DNA of 64,000 nt, taken from NCBI GenBank assembly GCA_016191815.1, contig JACPVI010000035.1, forward strand, positions 1 to 64,000, given 5' to 3'. This document shows, one piece after another, positions 1 through 13,040 of this stretch (position 1 is the stretch's first letter; the number at the start of each line of letters is the position of its first letter). A program made the translations under genes and the position numbers. A model generated the notes under the pieces. It searched no databases, was not told the DNA's origin, and saw nothing but the letters and a program-made list of their open reading frames with translations. The DNA is from Myxococcales bacterium (GTDB lineage: Bacteria > Myxococcota > Myxococcia > Myxococcales > Myxococcaceae).

Positions 1-562
1 AGTCCTTCACCGTCTCCCAGTCGCCCGGGCCTTCATTCGAGAGTGCCGCCTCGCGCTCGGCGTCATCGAAGTAGGTGAGCGCGCGGAGCAGCAAAGGCTC
101 GTTGATGGGCTGTGCGTAGACGGTGCGCATCGCCGCCAGGCACTCGGCGATGCCCAGGCTCTCGTGCTGCAACATCACGTAGAGGTCGAAGAAGTCTCGC
201 CGCGTGCCGCGGTCCAGGATGGCGTGAAGCTTGGTCGCCAGAATCCCGGTGACGGTCAGCCGCCGGTCCTCGGTGTGGGGCTTGAGGGAGGCGAGCACGA
301 AGATGGAGACGTTGATGCCGTTCCACCTGAGATGAACCGTGTCGGCGCTTCGCTCGCTGAGCTCGACGGTGCCGCCCCGTTCGAGCTGGGCGAGCAGCGC
401 CTCGAGATCCGCGGGCGCGCCCACTCCGAAGTCGACGTCGCGACTGGGCCGGTAGGGGCAGAAGCACCGCACCGCGTGGCCGCCGATGACGAACCAGCAG
501 GGAAGCGGCGCCACCACCGCCGCCAGCGCCTGGGGGATGACACTCTCTGGCCGATGGGACAC
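1..562 (-). CDS. AbiEii-like nucleotidyltransferase (3' end off the window)
   Basis: The protein begins V-S-H-R-P-E and soon shows a nucleotidyltransferase signature: Gly-Gly-His-Ala followed about a dozen residues later by Asp-Val-Asp (GGHA...RDVDFGV). Further on is an ATKLHAI...R..RDFFDLY segment typical of the AbiEii/AbiGii toxin family. The GTG start is preceded by GAGGA and lies 6 bp after the stop of the upstream gene, so the two are almost certainly co-transcribed and translationally coupled. The family transfers nucleotides, in several cases to tRNA, and acts as the toxin of type IV-like toxin-antitoxin pairs. Toxin activity here is inferred. The C-terminus is missing because the gene leaves the window on the left. 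Confidence 0.8.
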   Translation of the reverse strand, partial: MSHRPESVIPQALAAVVAPLPCWFVIGGHAVRCFCPYRPSRDVDFGVGAPADLEALLAQLERGGTVELSERSADTVHLRWNGINVSIFVLASLKPHTEDRRLTVTGILATKLHAILDRGTRRDFFDLYVMLQHESLGIAECLAAMRTVYAQPINEPLLLRALTYFDDAEREAALSNEGPGDWETVKD

Positions 563-568
563 GGTTCC

Positions 569-1081
569 TCAGATGCCACGCGCCCTAAGCACCGCCTCCA
601 GGAGGCCGCGGCTCCTCGGACGGAACCCTCGCATCCGGGCGGCCTGGAAAAGCGCGAGCCAGGGCAGTCCCGCGGCGAAGCTGACCGCCGAGACATCCCC
701 GTAGTTGAAGCAGTAGAAGGCGAGCTGGTGGCCGGGGACGGATGCCTTCGGATCCACGTTGTAGAGCGCCTCGCGCACTGCCTTGGGCAAGCGGGCCTGC
801 TCGTACCGCCGCGTGGGAGCTTTCGCCATGAAGCTGTAGAGAGTCCCGCGCGCCGGAGCCCTCTGCCCGCTCTCCCGGCAGAAGACACGCAGCTCCTCCT
901 CGAGCGCGCGCATTGCCGGCCGCTCCTGACCCGAGAGGAGTTGCTCCAGCTTGGCCGCGACGGGAGCCGCCAGCCGAGAACGCCCTCGGTCGGCCCGCGG
1001 GCGGCGCGGTGAGCCTCTGGGCACAGGCCCCAGGCGCTTGGCCGCCCGCTCCTGGGCTTCCTGCATATTCATGAACGACAT
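569..1081 (-). CDS. 170-residue partner of the nucleotidyltransferase, candidate antitoxin
   Basis: A basic N-terminal segment (roughly residues 10-45) is followed by a helical region and a conserved-looking C-terminal half with an LPKAVREALYNVDP stretch and an FNYGDVSAVSFAAGLPW stretch. I do not recognise a named domain with certainty. It precedes the AbiEii-like gene by 6 bp in the same direction, the usual antitoxin position. The start ATG is preceded by a very good promoter placed so close that the mRNA may have almost no leader. An antitoxin or DNA-binding repressor role is inferred from position, size and basic charge only. Confidence 0.7.
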   Translation of the reverse strand: MSFMNMQEAQERAAKRLGPVPRGSPRRPRADRGRSRLAAPVAAKLEQLLSGQERPAMRALEEELRVFCRESGQRAPARGTLYSFMAKAPTRRYEQARLPKAVREALYNVDPKASVPGHQLAFYCFNYGDVSAVSFAAGLPWLALFQAARMRGFRPRSRGLLEAVLRARGI

Positions 1082-1118: not shown

Positions 1119-1214
1119 ACTCTTGCCATACAGGTGCGGCGTTCGTGGCGGCTTGACCTCCGCGAGCGGGCTCGCGAGGCTTGGGCCCGAGGTTGGCCGG
1201 CAGGGAGGGAGCCG

Positions 1215-1658
1215 ATGTCCCGGGGCACGAGCACTCGCCGTTCCTTCTTCGTGAGCGCGATGTCCAAGGCGGCAGGCGCCTGGGCCTTTCTCACCAGCGG
1301 CGCCATTTCGGCGCTCTTCTTCGGCGCCTCGGGCTGCCGGCCCACCACCAAGTACGGCGGGCCTCGCATCGCGGAGAAGTACGGAGGCCCAGAGGTGGTG
1401 ACCAAGTACGGCGGGCCTCCTCCCTTCGGCCTCCACGAGGGGCCGCCCCTCGAGGACGCGGGAGTGGATGCCGGCGAGCCGGCGGCGGTGCCCAAGTATG
1501 GGGGACCGCCGGCGCTGGAGGAGCCGCCTCCGGAGCCGACCACCAAGTACGGCGGCCCTCCGCCGACGGAGGGCGCGCGGAAGTACGGGGGCCCAAGGCC
1601 CAAGTACGGCGGACCCCGCCCGGTCACCAAGTACGGCGGCCCGATGCGCCGCGACTAG
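1215..1658 (+). CDS. Tat-exported lipoprotein-like peptide with eight KYGGP motifs (candidate modified-peptide precursor)
   Basis: This 147-residue protein has three visible parts. Residues 7-13 read T-R-R-S-F-F-V, a good twin-arginine (Tat) motif, followed by a hydrophobic stretch. Ala-Ser-Gly-Cys at 38-41 resembles a lipobox, with Arg at +2. Residues 42-147 are Pro/Gly-rich and contain eight copies of Lys-Tyr-Gly-Gly-Pro, starting at residues 46, 55, 64, 94, 111, 123, 130 and 139, with linkers of 2 to 25 residues. AGGGAG lies about 5 bp before this ATG; an upstream in-frame ATG at 1134 would add 27 residues and has no better site. The next gene, a radical SAM/SPASM enzyme, starts 5 bp after the stop. 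I infer that this is its substrate, modified at the KYGGP motifs. No function is known to me. Confidence 0.75.
   Translation: MSRGTSTRRSFFVSAMSKAAGAWAFLTSGAISALFFGASGCRPTTKYGGPRIAEKYGGPEVVTKYGGPPPFGLHEGPPLEDAGVDAGEPAAVPKYGGPPALEEPPPEPTTKYGGPPPTEGARKYGGPRPKYGGPRPVTKYGGPMRRD
1350..1643 (+). repeat. Eight KYGGP-coding repeats
   Basis: Eight units encode Lys-Tyr-Gly-Gly-Pro, most preceded by Thr or Pro. The DNA copies are not identical: Tyr is TAC or TAT, the second Gly is GGC, GGG or GGA, and Pro uses CCT, CCA, CCG and CCC. Synonymous drift with an unchanged peptide motif indicates selection on the protein, not recent duplication by slippage. Spacing is irregular, with one long acidic linker between copies 3 and 4. 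Confidence 0.9.
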
Positions 1659-1663
1659 AGCCA

Positions 1664-2872
1664 ATGTCGAGCCGACTGACTGATTCCGTTCCGGACGGCT
1701 ATTCTGTTTCGGCCGAGCTTGCCGAGGCCCGCTCGCCGGCCCCACCCCGCTTGGCGCGCGCGACAGCGGAGAACGACGCTGGCTGCCTCGGGCTGCGCGA
1801 CTTCCCCAGGTTGGTGGCGGTCCGCCGCGACTCCGCCCGGAGGGCACGCCTTCTCACCAGCCCCGACCTCACCTACCTCTTTTGGGAATCCACCCTCCGC
1901 TGCAACCTGCGCTGCTTGCACTGCGGCTCCTCCTGCGAGGCGCGCTCTCCGGTGAAGGAGTTGGACACCTCCCAGGTGCTCGCCATCCTCGACACCATCG
2001 CCGAGGACTTCGACGCCTCGCGCATCTTCGTCTCCATCACCGGCGGGGAGCCTCTGCTCCGGCGCGACCTCTTCGAGGTGGTGGCGCACATGACCCGGCT
2101 GGGGATGCAAAGCTGCATCGTCACCAACGGAACCTTGCTCGGCCGTGGCGAGGCGGCTCGCCTGTCCGAAGCGGGGATGCGCACCGCCTCGGTGAGCATC
2201 GACGGGCTCTCCGAAGCGCACGAGGCCATCCGCGGGAAGGGCACCTATCGGCCGGCGCTCGCGGCGCTGGGCCACGCCCTCGAGGCGGGCTTCCACGCCG
2301 CCGAGGCCATCACCTGCGTCCGCCCCGCCAACCTGGACAGCCTCGCGGAAATCGAGGAGACGGTGCGCAGCGCCGGGGCCACCCAGTGGCGCCTCATCAC
2401 CATCGACCGGATGGGGAGGCTGGCCGGCTCCACCGACGAGGGCATGTGGCTCGGCCCGGCCCAGGTGAGAAAGCTCCTCGACTTCGTGGAGGAGCGGCGG
2501 CGGACGCTCTGCAAGTCGGGCGACTCCTTCGACGTGCGCTTCTCCTGCGGCGGCTTTCTCGGGGTGCGCCGGGAGCTTTCGGTGCGGCCGGGCGATGGGC
2601 AGTGCTTCGCCGGCCTGTGCGTGGCCTCCATCCTCTGCGACGGGAAGGTGAGCGCCTGCCCGTCGCTGCCGCGCTCCTGGGCGCAGGGCTCGGCACTGGA
2701 GCAGCGCTTCTCCCGCATCTGGAGCGAGCAGTTCCGCCCCCACCGCGAAGTCGCCTGGAGGAGGTCCGGCGCGTGCGAGAGCTGCTCCTACTTCTCCCTG
2801 TGCCTGGGCGGGGGGCTGCACGAGCGGCTGGCGCAGCCGGAAGACTTCTGCTGGCTGGACCGCCAAGGCTGA
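1664..2872 (+). CDS. Radical SAM/SPASM enzyme, candidate peptide maturase
   Basis: This 402-residue protein has the CxxxCxxC radical SAM cluster at Cys80, Cys84 and Cys87 (CNLRCLHC) and the GGEP SAM-binding motif at 127-130. The C-terminal SPASM-type region carries Cys314-x12-Gly327-x4-Cys332, then Cys371-x2-Cys374-x5-Cys380 and Cys396, which would bind auxiliary iron-sulfur clusters. The expected CX3C cysteine after Cys380 is Gly384, and Cys319 and Cys325 are extra. SPASM enzymes typically modify ribosomally made peptides. The gene starts 5 bp after the KYGGP-repeat gene, so that peptide is the obvious candidate substrate. About 70 residues precede the radical SAM core and could include a peptide-binding region, though I recognise no domain there. 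The reaction (crosslink, epimerisation or other) cannot be read from sequence. Confidence 0.9.
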   Translation: MSSRLTDSVPDGYSVSAELAEARSPAPPRLARATAENDAGCLGLRDFPRLVAVRRDSARRARLLTSPDLTYLFWESTLRCNLRCLHCGSSCEARSPVKELDTSQVLAILDTIAEDFDASRIFVSITGGEPLLRRDLFEVVAHMTRLGMQSCIVTNGTLLGRGEAARLSEAGMRTASVSIDGLSEAHEAIRGKGTYRPALAALGHALEAGFHAAEAITCVRPANLDSLAEIEETVRSAGATQWRLITIDRMGRLAGSTDEGMWLGPAQVRKLLDFVEERRRTLCKSGDSFDVRFSCGGFLGVRRELSVRPGDGQCFAGLCVASILCDGKVSACPSLPRSWAQGSALEQRFSRIWSEQFRPHREVAWRRSGACESCSYFSLCLGGGLHERLAQPEDFCWLDRQG

Positions 2873-2934
2873 GGGCCCGGCCCTCACGACGCGGTCTGGC
2901 CCAATCCACCGGCCGCCGGGTGGGGCCGAGTGTT

Positions 2935-4116
2935 TCAGCCGCCCGCGGCCTGCGCCAGCTCGCGGGCCTGCTTCTTCAGCGCGCCCGCGGCGGCGGGGTG
3001 GCCCTGCACCTTCGCGCACAGCTTCTTGGCCTCGCCGGAATGGCCGAGCCGCGCGTGGGCCAGCGCCAGATTGAAGATCGCCTCCGGAGCCTGCTCGCCG
3101 GACAAGGCCACCGCTTTCTCCAAAAGCGGCAGCGCCGCCGCCGGCTCCTTGCGCCGCTCCAGGTGGATGAGGCCCAGGTCGTTGTACGGCTTCCAGAAGC
3201 CCGGCTCGGCGGCGATGGCGCGCTCGAAGAGCGCCAGCGCCTCGTCCAGCGCCCCGGCGGACTCGAGCAGCGTGCCCAACAGGTGCAGCGCGCGCGCGTT
3301 CTTCTCGTCGGTGGCGATGGCCCGGCGCAGGGCGCCCTCGGCGTCGGAGAAGCGCTGGGCCGCCAGGTAACAGGCGGCAAGGTTGGTGAGCACGTCGGCG
3401 GAGGGCACCTCGGCCGCCAGCGACTCGGCGGTGGCGATGGCTTCGGGCAAATCCCCCGCGGCCAGAGACGCGTTCACCAGCGCGTCCCTGAGTCCGGGAT
3501 GGCCGGGGTTGTGCTGCAGCGCCGATTCCAGGTTCTTCGCGGCCGCGGCGTGGCGCCCACCTCGCCCCTGCAGGTTGGCGAGCACCAGCCAGGCCTCCAC
3601 CAGGCGCGGGTTGGCCTTGACCGTCTTGCCCAGCCACTCGATCGAGTCGTCCGGCCGGCCCAGATCCGCCATCACGCGCGCCTTGGCGAAGAGGTAGAGC
3701 GCGTTGTTCGGATCGGCCTCCACCGCCCGCGAGATGAGACGGTCCGCCTCGTCGAACCGCCCGGCCCGGGCCACGCAACGGCAGAGCTGGAAGTTGGCGG
3801 CGGCGTCCTTGGGCGCCTCCTTCAGCACCGCCTCCAATAGCCGCCGCGCGCCGGCATCGTCACCCTTCTCCAAAAGGAGCGCCGCCTTGAAGGTGCGCGC
3901 CGAGCGGTGCCCGCCGTCGGCCCGAAGCGCCTCCTCCAGCGCGGCCAGGCCAGCGTCTACCTCGCCCTGGGCCGCCAGGAGCCGCCCCCGGAAGACGAGC
4001 CCGTCGGCGTCCCGGGGATTCTTCTCCAGCAGCGTGCTGACGTCGCGGAGCGCCGCGTCCAGCTTCCCGGCCCGGAGCAGCGCCTCCAGCGCGTCAACGA
4101 TCGCAGCCGTCGCCAT
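2935..4116 (-). CDS. Tetratricopeptide repeat protein
   Basis: The 393-residue protein consists almost entirely of 34-residue TPR-like units, recognisable by recurring A..LL..G..D.A...L...L...P spacing from the N-terminus to about residue 385. No signal peptide or membrane segment is visible, so it is probably cytoplasmic. TPR arrays act as protein-protein scaffolds; no catalytic domain is present and the partner is unknown. It converges with the radical SAM gene across 62 bp. The start ATG is preceded by an AAAGGG sequence at reasonable distance. Confidence 0.9.
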   Translation of the reverse strand: MATAAIVDALEALLRAGKLDAALRDVSTLLEKNPRDADGLVFRGRLLAAQGEVDAGLAALEEALRADGGHRSARTFKAALLLEKGDDAGARRLLEAVLKEAPKDAAANFQLCRCVARAGRFDEADRLISRAVEADPNNALYLFAKARVMADLGRPDDSIEWLGKTVKANPRLVEAWLVLANLQGRGGRHAAAAKNLESALQHNPGHPGLRDALVNASLAAGDLPEAIATAESLAAEVPSADVLTNLAACYLAAQRFSDAEGALRRAIATDEKNARALHLLGTLLESAGALDEALALFERAIAAEPGFWKPYNDLGLIHLERRKEPAAALPLLEKAVALSGEQAPEAIFNLALAHARLGHSGEAKKLCAKVQGHPAAAGALKKQARELAQAAGG

Positions 4117-4176: not shown

Positions 4177-5505
4177 CTACCAGAAGAAGCTCGTCACCTT
4201 CTTGAAGGCGGCGGTGGCGCCCTCGGCAACGGCGCTCCTCGCGGTGGACACCCCGCTGGCGATGTTCTGCCCCGCCGTGGCAGCGGCGCCGGCCACCTGC
4301 ATCGCCGCCCCGCCGACCAGCTTGCCGGTCTCGAAGACGTCGACGTCGAAGTTGAGGCGCACGCCGGCCCCCACGCCCACCGCGGCTCCAAGGTTGATGT
4401 CCACGTTCGCGCGGCCGCCCTGGAAGCCCACATTGGCCTGAGCCTTGACACCGAGCCCCGCGTACACCTCGCCCCGGGCGCCGACGCTGGCGACGTCGTG
4501 GCCCCCGAGGCCCAAAGTCTGCTTCACCTCGGCGCTGGCCTTGGCGCCCACGAAGGCATCCACGCCTGCGCCCACCCGCACCCCGTCTCGGCCGAGGCTG
4601 ACGGTGGCGTTACCGGTCGCCTCGGCGCCCACGAAGGCGCGCCCCGACACCTGGGTTTGCCCGTGGATGACCTGGTTGCCATAGACAGTGGACTTCAGCG
4701 TGCCCTCGGCATCGGCCAGGTGGGCCTCGGCCCGACCCGAGAGGTCGCCCTTGAGCGTCAGCTTCTTGAGGTCGACGCCCACCGCCGCGCTGCCCGAGGC
4801 GCCGGCGTACAGCACCCGCGCCTGCCCGGAGGCGGTGCCCAGATTGCCGAGCTGGGTGGTGCCAGAGGCCGACGCGACGCTCGCCGAAACGGCGGCGCTC
4901 CTGGCCAGCAGGGTGGCGTGCGCGGAGATGCCCAGGTCGACTCGCGGTTTCTTGCCGGCCTCGTCGGCGACATCCTTCTTGTCGTCCAGCCAGCCTTCGG
5001 CCTTGGTCCAATGACGCTGGCTGGACCCCAGATCGTGCCGGGCGTCGATGTCGGCGAGCTTGACGCCGCCTCCGGAGCTCAACTTGGTGTTCGACTCGAT
5101 GAGCTGGGCCACCGTGATCTGCTTCTTCACTTCCTGCTGGAGCGCCGGCTGCGCCACCGGCACCTCGGCTTCGCCCTGGGCTTGCTTGGAGTCGCCCAAA
5201 AGCTTGCGCTTGCCCTGGTCCACCACCCGCCGCGCGTCGACGCCGTCACCGGGACGGGGAGGGAGGTAAAGCGTCGTCCCCGCCTTGAGCTGCCCCCGCG
5301 GTCCCACCTTTCCCTTGTTGGCGGCGGCGATGAGCTTGGCCTGCGCCGCACCCCCGTAGGCCTTCTTGGCGATCTGGGCGAGGGTGTCACCTGTGCGCAC
5401 CTTGTAGGATTGGCCGGGTGTTGGTCGAGCCGCGGAGGGCGGTGCTTTCGCGGGCGTGGGCCGCTTGGGTGCCAGAGGCTGAACGTCGGAAGACCGGGTG
5501 ATCAT
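4177..5505 (-). CDS. LysM-domain protein with long Gly/Ala/Val-rich C-terminal region
   Basis: Residues 34-82 form a LysM domain (starts YKVRTGDTLAQIAKKAYG, ends at LYLP), a fold that binds peptidoglycan or chitin-like glycans. The N-terminus is Pro/Ala-rich without a signal peptide. From about residue 190 the protein alternates hydrophobic and small residues (VGAGVDAFVGAKASAEV and similar), suggesting extended beta structure, and it ends Phe-Phe-Trp. A strong GGGGAGGA ribosome-binding site lies 5 bp before the ATG. Its upstream neighbour in the same direction also has a beta-rich C-terminus, so the two may share an envelope role. The specific function is unknown. Confidence 0.85.
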   Translation of the reverse strand: MITRSSDVQPLAPKRPTPAKAPPSAARPTPGQSYKVRTGDTLAQIAKKAYGGAAQAKLIAAANKGKVGPRGQLKAGTTLYLPPRPGDGVDARRVVDQGKRKLLGDSKQAQGEAEVPVAQPALQQEVKKQITVAQLIESNTKLSSGGGVKLADIDARHDLGSSQRHWTKAEGWLDDKKDVADEAGKKPRVDLGISAHATLLARSAAVSASVASASGTTQLGNLGTASGQARVLYAGASGSAAVGVDLKKLTLKGDLSGRAEAHLADAEGTLKSTVYGNQVIHGQTQVSGRAFVGAEATGNATVSLGRDGVRVGAGVDAFVGAKASAEVKQTLGLGGHDVASVGARGEVYAGLGVKAQANVGFQGGRANVDINLGAAVGVGAGVRLNFDVDVFETGKLVGGAAMQVAGAAATAGQNIASGVSTARSAVAEGATAAFKKVTSFFW

Positions 5506-5592
5506 TGCAGTCCTCCCCTCGTCGCGGGGCTAGTCACAAGGGTACGGGAAACGGGGCGGTGGGCACAATCGCGCCTTCTCATTTTCTTGTTC

Positions 5593-5606
5593 ACTCGAGC
5601 TCGAGT
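5593..5606. repeat. 14-bp palindrome ACTCGAGCTCGAGT
   Basis: A perfect palindrome in the 120-bp gap between two left-reading genes. A second palindrome with the same CTCGAG core follows 8 bp later. Together they could be an operator upstream of the LysM gene or a termination hairpin after the beta-rich gene. Confidence 0.6.
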
Positions 5607-5613
5607 TGCGTCT

Positions 5614-5625
5614 GGGCTCGAGCCC
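5614..5625. repeat. 12-bp palindrome GGGCTCGAGCCC
   Basis: A perfect palindrome abutting the stop codon of the left-reading gene that ends at 5626. It shares the CTCGAG core with the neighbouring 14-bp palindrome. No T-run follows on the minus strand, so it is not a classical intrinsic terminator. Confidence 0.6.
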
Positions 5626-6711
5626 TCAGAAGCGGATGCGCAATCCCACTCCCACTCGGCTCTCTCCTGCAGAGTCGTGAGAGGCAGAGAGGGCAAAGTC
5701 CACGTCCCGATTCACCTTCCACGAAGCCTCCGCGGTGGCGGTGGTCCGGTCGGTCTGGAAGTTGTGGTTGAGCCCGGCGCTCAAGTGGAAGTCTTCCCTC
5801 GGGCGCCAAAGGGCCTGGGCGTCAACCGACTCGAATCCCGAGCGGTTGAAATTGGTGCCGGCGGAGAGACTGAAGTCGGGCCGGTCTAGGCCGTAGGAAA
5901 TCCGTCCCCGGGAGAGGCCATCTCGGGTGTCGGCGGAGAGCGTCCCGGAAAGACGCCCCGCGCTTCCCAGCGACACCGACGAGGAGACGTTCGCGGTGGC
6001 GCGCAGGTTCTCGAAGCGGGGCCCGAAGTCTGCGCCCAGCTTCACCTTGAGCTGGCCGTCGAAGAAGCTCTGGCCCACCTCCGGCTTGATGCCCAGGCTC
6101 TTCAACCGCTGGGAGCCTCCGGACCAGGCGGCGTAGCCGGCCGCCCCCGCAAGCCCCGCGGCCAATGAGTAGTAGGCGGTGGGAGAGCTCTCCTCGAGCC
6201 GGCCGGCGAGCTGTTTGACCAGCTCCTCTCCTGCCTTTCCGAAGTCCGCCAGCCGGGCGGCCTCCCCGTTGCGCACCGTCACTCCTCGCTCGGCGAGCGA
6301 GGCGCGCAGCCAGCCGCTCACCTCCGGGGAGAAGGCCGCCAGGGGCAGCTCGCGCAGAAAATCGGTGGTTGCCTTCTTCGCCTGACTTTCCTGCGCCTCG
6401 GTCAACTCCTCGCCCTCGCGCAGCGGGGTGGCGCCCCTGGCGAGGCTGGCGGCGTCGGGGTTGAACATGCTCTCCAGCCGCGCCGTGTAGCGGTCGAGCG
6501 CGGTCCGGATGGAGGCCTCCACCGCCGGGGAGGCTTGCGGCGGCGCGGGAGGAAGCGGAGGCGAGGCGAAGCTGTCCTGAGGGCGAGGGCCGGCGCTGGT
6601 CCAGACCAGGTTCTGCTCCGGAGCCGCCGGCCCGGGCTCCTCCGGGGTCGGAGAGGTGGAAGCGGGGGCTCCTGGCACGGGCGCGGTTCTGCGGGGGCCG
6701 TTGACGGGCAC
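5626..6711 (-). CDS. Hypothetical protein, Pro-rich N-terminus and barrel-like C-terminus
   Basis: About 361 residues if it starts at the GTG used here. The start is uncertain: the frame stays open further upstream but would then overlap the oppositely oriented gene at 6751. Residues up to about 60 are Pro/Ala/Ser-rich, the middle is helical with a short Ala/Gly-rich hydrophobic segment (AYYSLAAGLAGAAGYAAW), and the last ~150 residues alternate polar and hydrophobic residues and end in Phe (RVGVGLRIRF), as in outer-membrane beta-barrels. No clear signal peptide is seen from this start. An outer-membrane location is a guess based on the C-terminus. It lies just upstream of the LysM gene in the same direction. 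Confidence 0.65.
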   Translation of the reverse strand: MPVNGPRRTAPVPGAPASTSPTPEEPGPAAPEQNLVWTSAGPRPQDSFASPPLPPAPPQASPAVEASIRTALDRYTARLESMFNPDAASLARGATPLREGEELTEAQESQAKKATTDFLRELPLAAFSPEVSGWLRASLAERGVTVRNGEAARLADFGKAGEELVKQLAGRLEESSPTAYYSLAAGLAGAAGYAAWSGGSQRLKSLGIKPEVGQSFFDGQLKVKLGADFGPRFENLRATANVSSSVSLGSAGRLSGTLSADTRDGLSRGRISYGLDRPDFSLSAGTNFNRSGFESVDAQALWRPREDFHLSAGLNHNFQTDRTTATAEASWKVNRDVDFALSASHDSAGESRVGVGLRIRF

Positions 6712-8031: not shown

Positions 8032-11000
8032 TCAGAGGCGTGCCTCGATGCCAACCGGTATCCCCTCTGCCCGCCGCTCGGGGCGATAATACTCGTAGAC
8101 GGTCGCCGGCGGGATCTGCGCCTTCACCGGCATGCGCGCGAGCAGCTTCAAAGGGAGCCAGACCTCCTGCCGCGCGGGCAGCTTGGTCAGGTAGAAGACG
8201 ACCTCGCGCGCTCCCCGCTCGTACTTGTCGATGTGCTTGTCGAGCACCAACCGTTCGAGCGCCGCCTCGTCGACGAGGAACCCGGGCGGAATCCCGGCTC
8301 TCACCACCGGCATGGCGATCGCCTCTCCGGCCCGCACCACCACGGTCTGCTCAACCTCGCCGCCGACGCGCGTCATCGACTCGTCCAGCGCGGTGCGCAC
8401 CGAGAGCAGCTCGCCAGGAGCTGGGGCCTCCTCGGGGCGGGGCTCGTGGAAGCTGCTCACGAGCTGGTAGCTCACCTCCCCCTTCCCCTCGAAGCGCAAA
8501 GTGACCTCGTGCTCGCCAGCGGCGCTCAGCTGGGGCAGCTCGAGGGTCTGCACCAGATCGGCCGCGCCACCCTCGCCGCGGACGGCCAGCGTCCCCACCT
8601 GCTTGCCGTCGACCTCGACCAGGAGCGCACCCTTACGCCTGCTTCCTCGGGCCCGCTCGTAGTCGAGCAGCGCCTGGAGGGATCGAATCGTCGCCTGCGT
8701 GGAATGCCAGTTGCCGAGGCTGTCCTTGGAGGAGACGAGGTAGGCGATGGCCTTCTCCACCCGGTCGCCGGTCCCGGGCAGGGGAAGCAGCGCCGTCGCC
8801 GCGCGCGCGGTGGTCTCGACGTCGCCCGACTTTCCGGCTCCGTAGGTGAGCGTCTGGCCGCGCGGCGCGGGGAAGTAGGCGCCGGTCCCGGCCGGCTGCC
8901 GTTGACTCCAGAGCCTCTCGGCGAGCCGCTCCCCGGAGAGGAGCTGCACCGCGAGCGCCAACGTGTAGGCGTCGGCGTCGGGCGCGAGATGCTTGCGGAC
9001 GTACTGGACCGCCCGGTCGATCGTCGCCGGAGAGGATCCCGCCTTGCGCAGGGCGAGGCCGATGTAGGCGGTCGTTCGGACCGCGTGCTCCTGGTAGTGG
9101 TCGGTCGCACCCTCGTTGATCGGCGAGCGCTCGACGCGCCAGCTCCCGTCCTCCTGTTGCCTGCGCTCCAACCATTCCCGGGTGCGGGTGATGAGCCGGC
9201 GGTCGACCGGGAAGAGCTGGGCCATGTCCACGAACTCCTCGAGCCCGTAAGCGGTGAGCACCTGGTTCGCCGGCGGATCTCCGAACCAGGAGAAGCCGCC
9301 GCCGGGCACCTCGTAGGAGAGCAGCTTCTGGTAGCCCGCCGAGAGGTAGCGCCGCGCGCGATCCTCGATCTCCGGCGTCGTCTTCTTGGTGCGCCGCAGG
9401 TAGTCGAGGATCAACGCGTTCGGGTAGGTGGTCGAGGAGGTTTGCTCGAAGCAGCCGGATGGCATGCGCAACATCCCGTCGAGGCCCTCCATGACGTGGG
9501 CGGACATTCCCGGGTAGAGCTTCAGCGCCGCTCGCGGCGTGCCCTCGATCGTGGCGGGTGGAATCACCAGCGCATGTCGCCGGATCGCGCCGGCGCGCAG
9601 CCGGTCCTGGAAGGAGGCGGTCCGCTCGACCCCGTCGGGGAAGACCTCCGCCTCGCGGCGAATCGCGTCCGCGGCGGAGCTGCCCCGGGCCAGCACGGTG
9701 AGCGGGTGGCGGCCCACTCCGCGCGCGCGGATTCGGAAGTGGCGGACCCCGACCTCATGCGGGGAAAGCTCGAGGCCCTGGGCAGCTTCGCCGAGGCGTT
9801 CGAACCAAGGGGCGTCCTCGAGCGCCAGCGTCACCCGCTGCGGGCGCGGGAGATAGTTGTAGACCGCCACCGGCACCGCCACCTCGTCCCCCTGGGTCAG
9901 CGCTGGCGGCAGATCGAGGTCGACGAAGAACTCCTGGAAGACTCGCACCTCGAGGCTGGTCTGCCCGAGCCGGCCGTCCGCGGCGATGGCGTCCGCCGAG
10001 AGCAGCCAGGTAGTGATCGAGTCCGCGACGGTGACGTCGACCGATGCCTCCCCCGACTCGTCGGTGACGACGTCGGGGCGCCAGAGCATCGTCTCCGGGA
10101 AGCTGTCGCGCACCCGCGCGGGTTGGCGGCCGAAGACTTCGTGCCCCAGCCCGGCCGACCCGGGCACTCGCGACATCCCTCTTCCGCCGAGCGAGATGGA
10201 GCCGTAGCCGGCCCCGCCCCCTCCGGCGCCGGTGCCGCGGCTTCCCAGGCCACCGAATCCGATGGCGCTCCCGGTGACGCCCATCACCGCGAGCAGGCCT
10301 TGCCCGCTCGCGTCGGCAGGGAAGCGGTCGTCCCTGGTGTCCGGCTCCTGGTCGGGCCCGCTGGAGGCCACCAGGAAGCGCGATCGCACCCCGCTGATCC
10401 ACCGCACGCGCTTCTCCAGCTTGACCCGGAAGGGGCGGTCCCAGGGATCGACGAGCGCGGCCTCGGCGAGCTTGCCCGCCTCGGCGAGTGCGCGGAGATC
10501 CGCCTCGGCGAAGCGCACCACCTTCCGCTTCGCCGAGTCCCCCTCCAGCGGGAGCCTTCCGGCGCGGGCCTCCTGGGCCAGCGCCTGGTAGATGCTGCTC
10601 AGGCGATCGTCCAGCTCGCTCTGGGCCCAGTCATCGAAACTCCCCAGGTGGGCGGTCACCTCGCCGAGGGGAGAGGGGCGGCCCCAGGGGTCCGCCGCAT
10701 CGCGAGCGGGGAGGGCGCCGTCCGCGACCATTTGCTTGAGGAGGCCGCGCCGAAAGCGCCACGCCGCCCGCGAGCTCGACACCCGCTCGCCGAGCTGGTG
10801 CCCGCGCGAGTACCGGTCGACCGCCTCGATGACCCGCTCGCGCCGCGCCGCCGCCTCCTCGAGCAGCTTCTCGAGCCCGTCCTCCTCGAAACCGGTGTCC
10901 CAAGGCGGGGCGGCTCCGGCGAGCAGCACGCGGGCGACGAGGTCCTCCAGGGGGTCTTTTGCGCCCTGCTCGATGAGCGAGGCGAGGTTGCCCGGCTTCA

Positions 11001-12879
11001 CGGCGAGCTTTTCGAGGTGCTTGGTCGCGGACTCCGCGAGCAGGAAGTAGCTGCGCGCGAAGGCCGGCCGCACCGGCCGGAGCGCGAGCAGCGCCTTGTC
11101 CACCATCACCAGCCCGAGGGCGGCGCGGGCCGGCTGTCCGGAGGCGGCATCCACCACCTTGAGCCGAAGCCGGCCGTGCTCACCCGGGGCGAAGGCGCCG
11201 TCGCGGCCGCCCTCGGCGCGCGCCTCGACCTGGAGCGCGCTGGGCCGCTCGACGAAGACGAGGCGCGGGCTCCCGCGTCGCCCGACTCTCCCGCCGCCGG
11301 CCCAGTACGGCTGGAACTGCAGCGTCCCGAAGCGGCGCTGCTGTGGGTCGAGCACGAGCCGGCCCCTGCCGTCGCGCACCTCGACCGCCGCGGTGTCGAC
11401 GGTCTGCCCGTCCTTCACCACGTCGACGAGCACGGTTCCGCTGGCGTGCGGGGCGAGCACCTGTAGCCCAATCGGGGCCCCGAGGGGATAGAGGGCGCGA
11501 TCGGTGCGGAGCAACAGCGGGCCGGGCTCGCATTGCGTTCGCGCCGGTCCCTGAGCCGTGACGGTGGCGCATCTCGCCGGCCGCTGCACGCCTACGCAGC
11601 GGCCGATGACTCGGGTCTCGCCAGCGTGGCGCACGGAGGCCTCGAGCTCCAGGCAATGTCGGGCACCCGGGTTCGACGCTGGGGTGAGCTCCAGCTCGGC
11701 GATGCCGGCGGCGTTGGTGCGGGCTTCGCCGGTGGGCTTCAAGCTCACCTCCGCGCCCGAGATCGGCGAGCCATCGGGCGAGGCGGCGAGCACATACAGC
11801 CGGTTGGGAACCTCGGCGACGAGCTCGGGCGCCTCGGACACCAGCTCGAGCTTCAAGCCCGAGTCGTGGGTGGGCACGCGCCGGGCGCCCTTCTCGGTGT
11901 GTCCGGCGGGGTCGGTGACCTCCGCGTTCACCACCAGCTCCAGCCCGGGCTCCGACCGCTCACCGAGCGGCACCTCGAGCTCGAGGGTCGCCCGGCCCTG
12001 GGAATCGGTGGTGGTCTCCAGTCGCTGCGACGCGGCGAATGTCCGCTCCCGGCCCAGACCGACCTCCGCGCGCACCTTGGCTCCGCTCACCGGCTTGCCG
12101 AAGAAGTACCGGGCATCGAGGTGCACCCGCGCCCTTTCTCCAAGGCGGTACCAGCTCCGATCGGTCTCCAGGGAGACCCTGAACTTCGGCAGCGCGTAGC
12201 GCTCGACATTCAGCTCGAGCTCGGCTGGCGGCGCCGAGCCATCGACGGCCTGTGCGCGAGCCTTGTAGGCGCCGAGAAGAATCTCCCCGCCCAGCTGAAA
12301 GTCCGCCCAGGCCACGCCGAACTCCGAAGTCTTCCGCCGCTCGGTGAACACTCGGTTGTCGCGCGGGTCGAACACCTCGAACTGCACGAGCATGCCGGCG
12401 GCGGGCTTCATGTCCCGCGGGCGTACGGCGATCGCCCGGAGGTGGACGGCTTGTCCGGGCTGATAGAGGGGCTTGTCGGATTGCAGTAACACCTTTCCTT
12501 GCGAAGCGAGACGAACCGCGACCCGGCGCAGGTGTTGTCGCTTCCCCGCCGCGGCGCGCACCACGAGCGAGTACTCGCCCTCCGGCCAGTCGGGAGCGAG
12601 GAAGCTTGCGCCGGCCTCTCCGTCCGCTCCGGCGGCACCTTCGAAGAGCTGGGCGGTTCGGCCCTTGCCCTCCATCCACACGGCGACATTCGCGCCTGGC
12701 CATGGCCCGTGCTCGTCTTCCGAGGTGGAGCGCTGGGCGATGATCCGAACCGCGGCGGGGGTGCCGGCGACCATCTCCCTGGAGCAACGGATGTGGGTGG
12801 TGAGCACTCCTGGGGGCGGTCTCTCGACTGCACCGATCGAGAGCATCGCCATCGGGGCGAGGACGAAAGCGGGGAGCAT
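8032..12879 (-). CDS. Bacterial alpha-2-macroglobulin with thioester motif
   Basis: The 1615-residue protein starts with a signal peptide (M-L-P-A-F-V-L-A-P-M). The first ~550 residues are MG domains, the central alpha-2-macroglobulin region includes ETMLWRPDVVTDESGEA, and the thioester motif G-C-F-E-Q lies at about residues 1142-1146. An alpha-alpha toroid follows (TAYGLEEFVDMAQLF, TTAYIGLALRKAG), then a receptor-binding-like C-terminus. These proteins trap proteases covalently in the periplasm or at the surface. Between about residues 730 and 860 there is an unusual insert with two D-P-W-x-R-P motifs, resembling the C-terminal part of type II secretion pseudopilin GspG, followed by a Gly-rich stretch. 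GGAGGG sits 5 bp before the ATG. Confidence 0.95.
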   Translation of the reverse strand: MLPAFVLAPMAMLSIGAVERPPPGVLTTHIRCSREMVAGTPAAVRIIAQRSTSEDEHGPWPGANVAVWMEGKGRTAQLFEGAAGADGEAGASFLAPDWPEGEYSLVVRAAAGKRQHLRRVAVRLASQGKVLLQSDKPLYQPGQAVHLRAIAVRPRDMKPAAGMLVQFEVFDPRDNRVFTERRKTSEFGVAWADFQLGGEILLGAYKARAQAVDGSAPPAELELNVERYALPKFRVSLETDRSWYRLGERARVHLDARYFFGKPVSGAKVRAEVGLGRERTFAASQRLETTTDSQGRATLELEVPLGERSEPGLELVVNAEVTDPAGHTEKGARRVPTHDSGLKLELVSEAPELVAEVPNRLYVLAASPDGSPISGAEVSLKPTGEARTNAAGIAELELTPASNPGARHCLELEASVRHAGETRVIGRCVGVQRPARCATVTAQGPARTQCEPGPLLLRTDRALYPLGAPIGLQVLAPHASGTVLVDVVKDGQTVDTAAVEVRDGRGRLVLDPQQRRFGTLQFQPYWAGGGRVGRRGSPRLVFVERPSALQVEARAEGGRDGAFAPGEHGRLRLKVVDAASGQPARAALGLVMVDKALLALRPVRPAFARSYFLLAESATKHLEKLAVKPGNLASLIEQGAKDPLEDLVARVLLAGAAPPWDTGFEEDGLEKLLEEAAARRERVIEAVDRYSRGHQLGERVSSSRAAWRFRRGLLKQMVADGALPARDAADPWGRPSPLGEVTAHLGSFDDWAQSELDDRLSSIYQALAQEARAGRLPLEGDSAKRKVVRFAEADLRALAEAGKLAEAALVDPWDRPFRVKLEKRVRWISGVRSRFLVASSGPDQEPDTRDDRFPADASGQGLLAVMGVTGSAIGFGGLGSRGTGAGGGGAGYGSISLGGRGMSRVPGSAGLGHEVFGRQPARVRDSFPETMLWRPDVVTDESGEASVDVTVADSITTWLLSADAIAADGRLGQTSLEVRVFQEFFVDLDLPPALTQGDEVAVPVAVYNYLPRPQRVTLALEDAPWFERLGEAAQGLELSPHEVGVRHFRIRARGVGRHPLTVLARGSSAADAIRREAEVFPDGVERTASFQDRLRAGAIRRHALVIPPATIEGTPRAALKLYPGMSAHVMEGLDGMLRMPSGCFEQTSSTTYPNALILDYLRRTKKTTPEIEDRARRYLSAGYQKLLSYEVPGGGFSWFGDPPANQVLTAYGLEEFVDMAQLFPVDRRLITRTREWLERRQQEDGSWRVERSPINEGATDHYQEHAVRTTAYIGLALRKAGSSPATIDRAVQYVRKHLAPDADAYTLALAVQLLSGERLAERLWSQRQPAGTGAYFPAPRGQTLTYGAGKSGDVETTARAATALLPLPGTGDRVEKAIAYLVSSKDSLGNWHSTQATIRSLQALLDYERARGSRRKGALLVEVDGKQVGTLAVRGEGGAADLVQTLELPQLSAAGEHEVTLRFEGKGEVSYQLVSSFHEPRPEEAPAPGELLSVRTALDESMTRVGGEVEQTVVVRAGEAIAMPVVRAGIPPGFLVDEAALERLVLDKHIDKYERGAREVVFYLTKLPARQEVWLPLKLLARMPVKAQIPPATVYEYYRPERRAEGIPVGIEARL

Positions 12880-13040
12880 GGATCCCTCCACGGGCGGGAG
12901 CGGGAGCGGCAGCCGGCCAGACAACGGCCCGTGCGCAGAGTTCCAAGCCCGGTTTCTCCGGCTTCGCTCGCGCCACTGCGCAAAGCGGGTCCGGGTATTG
13001 CTCGCCCCTGATTGGCGGCTGGAGCGGGCCGAGCCGATGC

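Follow-up and report, generated by a model that had tools for sequence, protein, structure and literature searches.

The splicease PlpX of Pleurocapsa, which has been studied experimentally together with the RRE protein PlpY, excises tyramine at the motif XYG and belongs to IPR026482 (PMC11002830). The splicease site has been defined as XYG, with the tyramine-excision mass printed as 135.0757 (PMC10533398), and the splicease modification has been noted as a moiety for protease inhibition (PMC11002830). Engineered tags on the core of PlpA2, e.g., GGPIRPLYGLPI (LYGLP), match the consensus xYGxP. We take IPR026482 to be equivalent to NCBIfam TIGR04103. A second pairing is described by the NCBIfam models TIGR04133 (rSAM_w_lipo) and TIGR04134 (lipo_with_rSAM). 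MftC is a SPASM enzyme acting on Tyr, and anSMEcpe acts on a protein before export. Our literature search yielded no mention of TIGR04133, TIGR04134 or KYGGP; the published splicease survey (Scott 2022, Chem) lay outside that search.

The window, i.e., the whole analysed stretch of 64,000 nt, lies on contig C25 of a 6.77 Mb Myxococcales genome in 89 contigs. An earlier note on this DNA had reported a 147-residue protein with eight KYGGP motifs, followed after 5 bp by a radical SAM/SPASM gene; the pair was confirmed at the same coordinates. Its features are listed below, with their basis in parentheses.

1203–1211, forward strand: purine-rich ribosome-binding site of the precursor gene, GGGAGGGAG, 5′ of the ATG at 1215 (sequence)
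1215–1658, forward strand: precursor, 147 aa, with signal, lipobox and eight KYGGP, other Tyr absent (sequence)
1236–1250, forward strand: twin-arginine core RRSFF, residues 8–12 (sequence; RR in two of five orthologous precursors)
1326–1337, forward strand: lipobox-like A-S-G-Cys41 (Cys at the equivalent place in all five orthologous precursors)
1350–1364, forward strand: KYGGP motif 1 (sequence)
1377–1391, forward strand: KYGGP motif 2 (sequence)
1404–1418, forward strand: KYGGP motif 3 (sequence)
1494–1508, forward strand: KYGGP motif 4 (sequence)
1545–1559, forward strand: KYGGP motif 5 (sequence)
1581–1595, forward strand: KYGGP motif 6 (sequence)
1602–1616, forward strand: KYGGP motif 7 (sequence)
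1629–1643, forward strand: KYGGP motif 8 (sequence)
1664–2872, forward strand: 402-aa radical SAM/SPASM enzyme that shares a clade with TIGR04133 (Pfam, NCBIfam, tree, AlphaFold2 model)
1901–1936, forward strand: CxxxCxxC cluster-binding motif, then Cys91 (CGSSC) (sequence comparison, tree alignment)
2546–2851, forward strand: SPASM region, Cys295 to Cys396, CX2CX5C without the fourth Cys (CLGGGLH) (tree alignment)

The pair shares with TIGR04133/TIGR04134 the enzyme clade (bootstrap 100), the adjacent lipoprotein, a YGxP near the lipidated Cys and the Cys pattern of the enzyme (Cys91 present, fourth SPASM Cys missing). However, the window enzyme scores 266 bits against a TIGR04133 cut-off of 425, and the window precursor matches no TIGR04134 model, lacks the C-terminal domain of TIGR04134 proteins, contains eight motifs where those proteins have one or two and carries a Tat-like signal. 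With PlpX/PlpY, it has in common the XYG target motif, a radical SAM/SPASM enzyme and the fit of the PlpA2-derived LYGLP to xYGxP, and the TIGR04103 enzyme of the window genome likewise adjoins a repeat protein (ten motifs of the PLYG type). Here the differences are that the window enzyme belongs to another clade, that a PlpY-like gene is missing from its unit, that its precursor bears an export/lipidation signal instead of a Nif11 or nitrile hydratase-like leader and that splicing by the pair is a prediction. Among the nearest solved folds to the window enzyme model is anSMEcpe (Z 26.7), but its target is a Cys or Ser in sulfatases, a substrate unrelated to the KYGGP precursor. MftC (TIGR03962) is the second-best family match at 129 bits, although its cut-off of 265 is not reached, it is separate in the tree and, together with MftB, it acts on a Tyr at the C-terminus of a small peptide. 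The KYGGP pair is a known radical SAM/lipoprotein pairing in a new form; it is conserved, and known chemistry is strongly hinted at. The system had been proposed as undescribed, which is too broad given the clade of the enzyme and the match of the motif to the splicease site.

The Repeat Protein

The precursor gene runs from the ATG at 1215 to a TAG at 1656–1658, and the protein begins MSRGTSTRRSFFVSAMSKAAGAWAFLTSGAISALFFGASGCRPTTKYGGP. It is rich in Gly and Pro. Its KYGGP motifs start at residues 46, 55, 64, 94, 111, 123, 130 and 139 and contain all eight Tyr and eight of the nine Lys of the protein. In 100,000 shuffles, the mean number of KYGGP per shuffled precursor was 0.0023 and the maximum was one. 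Six-frame translation of the window gave eight KYGGP, all in the precursor gene, and the coding pattern AARTAYGGNGGNCC had eight matches in the whole 6.77 Mb genome, again all within this gene. Since the KYGGP codons differ at third positions (TAC/TAT, GGC/GGA/GGG), it is the peptide that has been kept and not just a DNA repeat. No match to the precursor was found in Pfam or NCBIfam.

Close Relatives of the Pair

The enzyme subfamily is known from five loci: the window, L007 and L011 (both in genome G106), and L014 and L015 (Myxococcales metagenome assemblies). The enzymes of L007, L011, L014 and L015 are, respectively, 73%, 68%, 69% and 64% identical to that of the window, and the close relatives score 252–270 bits against TIGR04133. 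A repeat protein is encoded directly upstream of the enzyme in all five cases, which bears out the idea of a dedicated precursor-enzyme pair. The window precursor has eight KYGGP, that of L007 four KYGGP and one KYGGN, that of L011 five AYGGP, that of L014 two KYGGP and that of L015 five KYGGP. The L015 pair is flanked by genes encoding a DnaJ protein and cysteinyl-tRNA synthetase (cysS); as flanks differ among loci, only the two genes travel together.

The five precursors share an N-terminal Arg followed by an aligned Ser, an AAGxW stretch (AALW in L015) and a lipobox-position Cys, which is the single Cys of each protein; in the four relatives, the motifs likewise sit behind this lipobox Cys. 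These observations agree with the lipobox-like Cys41 of the earlier note (ASGC41 in the sequence) and support its suggestion that the product is probably a surface lipoprotein. The twin-arginine signal fared less well: residues 7–12 of the window precursor are the Tat-like TRRSFF, but twin Arg was present in just two of the five precursors (window and L007), with KR in one and a single Arg in two (QR and PR). Tat was accordingly rejected as a defining feature.

A DNA search of 195 genomes from the phylum detected paired KYGGP in two. In the window genome it occurred solely at the precursor gene; in G106 it occurred at two places, one next to a subfamily enzyme and the other next to a different radical SAM enzyme (L156). 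The KYGGP enzyme gene of G106 is followed by one for a secreted or lipoprotein-type peptidase (Pfam BSP; L099, 1626–2582, reverse strand); this neighbour was not seen at other KYGGP loci.

The Radical SAM/SPASM Enzyme

The ATG of the enzyme gene (1664) follows the precursor stop after a 5-base gap. The enzyme matched Pfam Radical_SAM (PF04055, 7e-22) and SPASM (PF13186, 7e-7), both over the cut-off, as the radical SAM/SPASM identity first given to it implies. Its best NCBIfam match was TIGR04133, with 265.7 bits (below the cut-off of 425), whereas it scored 129 bits against MftC, 122 against AhbD and 115 against TIGR04103 (cut-off 725).

A tree was built from 58 enzymes and 339 columns, with L111 (seven stops) and L006 (very distant) left out. 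The five KYGGP enzymes grouped together (bootstrap 100). A larger clade, also with bootstrap 100, joined them to TIGR04133-like enzymes of Myxococcota, Bacteroidales, Fibrobacter and other groups; TIGR04103-like, MftC and AhbD-like enzymes fell outside it. Membership of the window enzyme in the PlpX clade (TIGR04103) was ruled out by the score of 115 bits and by the separate clades, with bootstrap 100 each.

Cys91 (1934–1936) was present in 32 of 32 sequences of the TIGR04133 superfamily, and none of the TIGR04103-like, MftC and AhbD-like sequences compared with them has it; His386 was also invariant in the superfamily (32/32). The SPASM motif of the window enzyme, at 2774–2824, departs from the full auxiliary-cluster motif CX2CX5CX3C: the fourth Cys is Gly here and Gly, Asn or Ser in the superfamily sequences inspected, whereas TIGR04103 enzymes keep it. 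Judged from the alignment, Cys91, His386 and the loss of the fourth Cys set the TIGR04133 superfamily apart.

The AlphaFold2 model of the enzyme (25 sequences) had a pLDDT of 84.3, with residues 1–38 at very low confidence. The nearest solved folds were SuiB (Z 26.9), anSMEcpe and SkfB (Z 26.4), along with CteB, ChlB and PqqE, all SPASM maturases; the model has the fold of SPASM maturases whose substrates are peptides or proteins. Searches of the PDB gave neither a structure nor a close sequence relative of PlpX. In the confident part of the model before residue 66 there is one helix (44–65) only and no separate recognition domain.

A Shared Motif in the Wider Family

Distant relatives of the enzyme (32–41% identity) fell within the TIGR04133/TIGR04134 pair and its surroundings. 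The TIGR04133 superfamily was met in Bacteroidales, Fibrobacter, Spirochaetaceae, Campylobacteraceae and Myxococcota, with TIGR04133/TIGR04134-type pairs coming mostly from gut and rumen Bacteroidales. At one Marinifilaceae locus (L020), the enzyme scored 569 bits against TIGR04133 and the precursor 104.6 bits against TIGR04134, which ties the family directly to the named pair. No TIGR04134 match was found for the window or L007 precursors or in the window genome.

The small lipoproteins beside family enzymes carry the motifs CYGTP, CYGIP, EYGTP, LYGVP (repeated), YYGPxP, KYGVP (repeated) and VYGPP. Under one fixed rule (lipobox plus YG(x)P), an ORF was detected within 1 kb of the enzyme at 43 of 59 loci, as against one of 42 control windows placed 2.5–4.5 kb away; the former count is a lower bound, as the rule missed or misplaced neighbours such as that of L018 (YG protein upstream). 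By this rule, a candidate was absent within 1 kb at L019, L029, L036, L040, L044, L050 and L061. YG was present in 36 of the 38 nearest lipobox ORFs (15 expected after shuffling), a count for which L010 and L056 are among the neighbours missed or misplaced, and 63 of the 199 Tyr in these ORFs were followed by Gly. Over 58 sites, which were compiled by hand and chosen for having YG, so that the counts are descriptive, 11 different residues preceded YG (C, E, L, A, M, Y, K, V, I, F and R), and in 42 of the sites the second residue after Gly was Pro. In many relatives, the residue before YG is the lipidated Cys (CYG). At L102 and L108 (G092), several small lipoproteins are encoded in tandem upstream of one enzyme gene, each with one or two YG near the lipidated Cys.

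As the residue before YG varies widely, Tyr-Gly and not Lys is the conserved target. Lys, one of the two targets first proposed, was rejected as unlikely: it is replaced by Ala in the 68% identical relative and by many other residues in the wider family. Relatives of the enzyme that lack a repeat peptide had been named as a refutation of the proposal. Such relatives do exist, beside distant single-motif lipoproteins, but these have the same YGxP once, and the claim is narrowed by them rather than refuted. Together, the data suggest that the whole TIGR04133 family works on one shared motif, and that its action is possibly the cutting of tyramine out of the protein backbone. The family-wide motif makes TIGR04133/TIGR04134 function directly testable, which we regard as the most useful result. 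Because this one motif, XYGxP, coincides with the splicease site, it links the family lipoproteins to a distinctive mass-change prediction for a little-studied enzyme family.

TIGR04103-Type Loci in the Same Bacterial Group

Contig C11 of the window genome (L097) encodes a TIGR04103-type enzyme (1877–3088, 606 bits), presumably of the PlpX class. Its precursor, ending near 1779, is a soluble protein of 249 aa with ten PLYG[IV]/PMYGV units at a period of 18 residues. A 91-aa gene downstream at L097 is kept in four related loci (L128–L131). A small third gene is kept beside four of the TIGR04103 loci, and the window contains no relative of it. Other myxobacterial TIGR04103 loci had the motifs RYGVIRPP, MRYGLRPP, MKYGLIRPD and MYGVFIRD, that is, RYG, KYG and MYG repeats. 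At L156 (G106 contig C304; 2469–3737 and 3774–4196), a signal-less soluble protein with five KYGGP lies beside an enzyme of the TIGR04103 side (244 bits against TIGR04103). Hence, two enzyme clades adjoin XYG proteins in the same bacterial group, and both do so with KYGGP in G106. On these grounds, the chemistry to be considered first for the window enzyme is tyramine excision.

Contig C20 of the window genome (L098) holds a further TIGR04103-related enzyme (4618–5727). Its 225-aa precursor, within 5588–6379, has no Pfam match and contains six XY[IVM]xxP-like motifs (LYVAP, EYIAP, VYIAP, RYIAP, KYMVVPP and MYMVVRP), in which Tyr is kept and Gly is not.

Proposed Modification and Alternatives

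The explanation that we favor is modification in the cytoplasm at XYG, most likely by tyramine excision, before export and lipidation; we give it a probability of roughly 0.5 (0.52). Its parts differ in strength. That the enzyme modifies the neighboring precursor is highly probable. That modification comes before export is likely, because radical SAM enzymes work in the cytoplasm. For the chemistry itself, the odds of tyramine excision are about even, and the case for it comes from the motif and not from enzyme ancestry.

Under the favored explanation, the enzyme would act on X-Tyr-Gly-X-Pro sites of an unfolded, Pro/Gly-rich precursor, whose conserved N-terminal signal region may be recognized as a leader. 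Export of the modified precursor would follow, in this case probably through Tat, and the protein would end up lipidated at Cys41 and anchored to the cell surface. Splicing would remove C8H9NO (135.068 Da) per KYGGP, so the first mass change to be predicted per motif is −135.07 Da rather than the −2 Da initially put forward. Full conversion would remove 8 × 135.07 = 1080.5 Da and leave a surface array of eight Lys-type alpha-ketoamides. Such an array could reversibly trap serine or cysteine proteases cutting after Lys, with the Lys side chain before the ketone suiting trypsin-like proteases, and the different residues before YG in different systems (Lys, Ala, Arg, Leu, Met) would give different protease specificities. 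A protease-trap role is a guess, and on balance an unlikely one.

Several observations count against tyramine excision. The tree separates the window enzyme from the TIGR04103 clade, with bootstrap 100 on either side, and its match to TIGR04103 is no stronger than those to MftC and AhbD, so that shared chemistry is argued from the shared motif. According to the sequence, a PlpY-like gene is missing from the unit, though a partner may be encoded elsewhere, and the fourth SPASM Cys is missing from the enzyme. Moreover, splicing at CYG would change the lipidated residue in many relatives.

The enzyme may instead alter the Tyr of YG by other radical chemistry that keeps the tyramine, by Tyr C-beta/C-alpha desaturation or a cross-link (MftC, SuiB-type), epimerization at Gly or the residue before YG, or a thioether. 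We consider this a real possibility at clearly less than even odds. MftC, the second-best family match, also acts on Tyr; SuiB, which makes a Lys-Trp cross-link, and SkfB are among the closest folds; and the precursor on C20 keeps Tyr and not Gly, hinting that Gly-independent Tyr chemistry may exist nearby. Yet, in line with the splicease site, the TIGR04133 family almost always keeps the Gly that follows the Tyr. A thioether at each motif is impossible because the precursors have a single Cys, and no constant partner residue for a cross-link was seen.

It is improbable that the enzyme has another substrate and shares the operon by chance with a low-complexity surface protein, the KYGGP lipoprotein, that stays unmodified. 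A Gly/Pro-rich protein could serve as a spacer, but the pair is kept in five of five close and 43 of 59 wider loci, and all Tyr of the window protein are inside KYGGP. Finally, a viperin-like or heme-pathway enzyme in place of a peptide maturase can practically be discounted: the matches to PADLOC viperin models (1e-15) and the AhbD model (122 bits) were rejected as cross-matches of the common radical SAM core, given the 266 bits against TIGR04133, the SPASM domain, a tree that excludes AhbD-like and MftC sequences, and a motif lipoprotein as neighbor.

Should tyramine excision hold, bacteria would present backbone-edited proteins bearing reactive ketones on their surface, and short KYGGP tags could be used to label proteins with the KYGGP enzyme, apparently with no need for the gene of a partner protein. 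More tentatively, and at less than even odds, the TIGR04133 superfamily would be a second tyramine-excising clade that puts alpha-keto-beta-amino acids into exported lipoproteins, with the KYGGP protein as the most repeated form seen here, its eight beta-lysine-type ketoamides trapping proteases.

Neighboring Genes

The genes flanking the pair are unrelated to it in kind. Rfam and tRNA scans of the window found nothing. Downstream, on the other strand, lies a gene for a TPR protein. A few kb from the pair, 8032–12,924 (reverse strand) encodes a bacterial alpha-2-macroglobulin-like protein of ~1630 aa, a protease trap; no link between it and the KYGGP pair was seen. Upstream, on the other strand, are a 170-aa gene without a Pfam match (569–1081, reverse strand) and an AbiEii-like nucleotidyltransferase gene that is cut by the window edge (2–562, reverse strand). 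The AbiEii-like part corresponds to a type IV toxin-antitoxin nucleotidyltransferase, and the 170-aa gene beside it could encode its partner.
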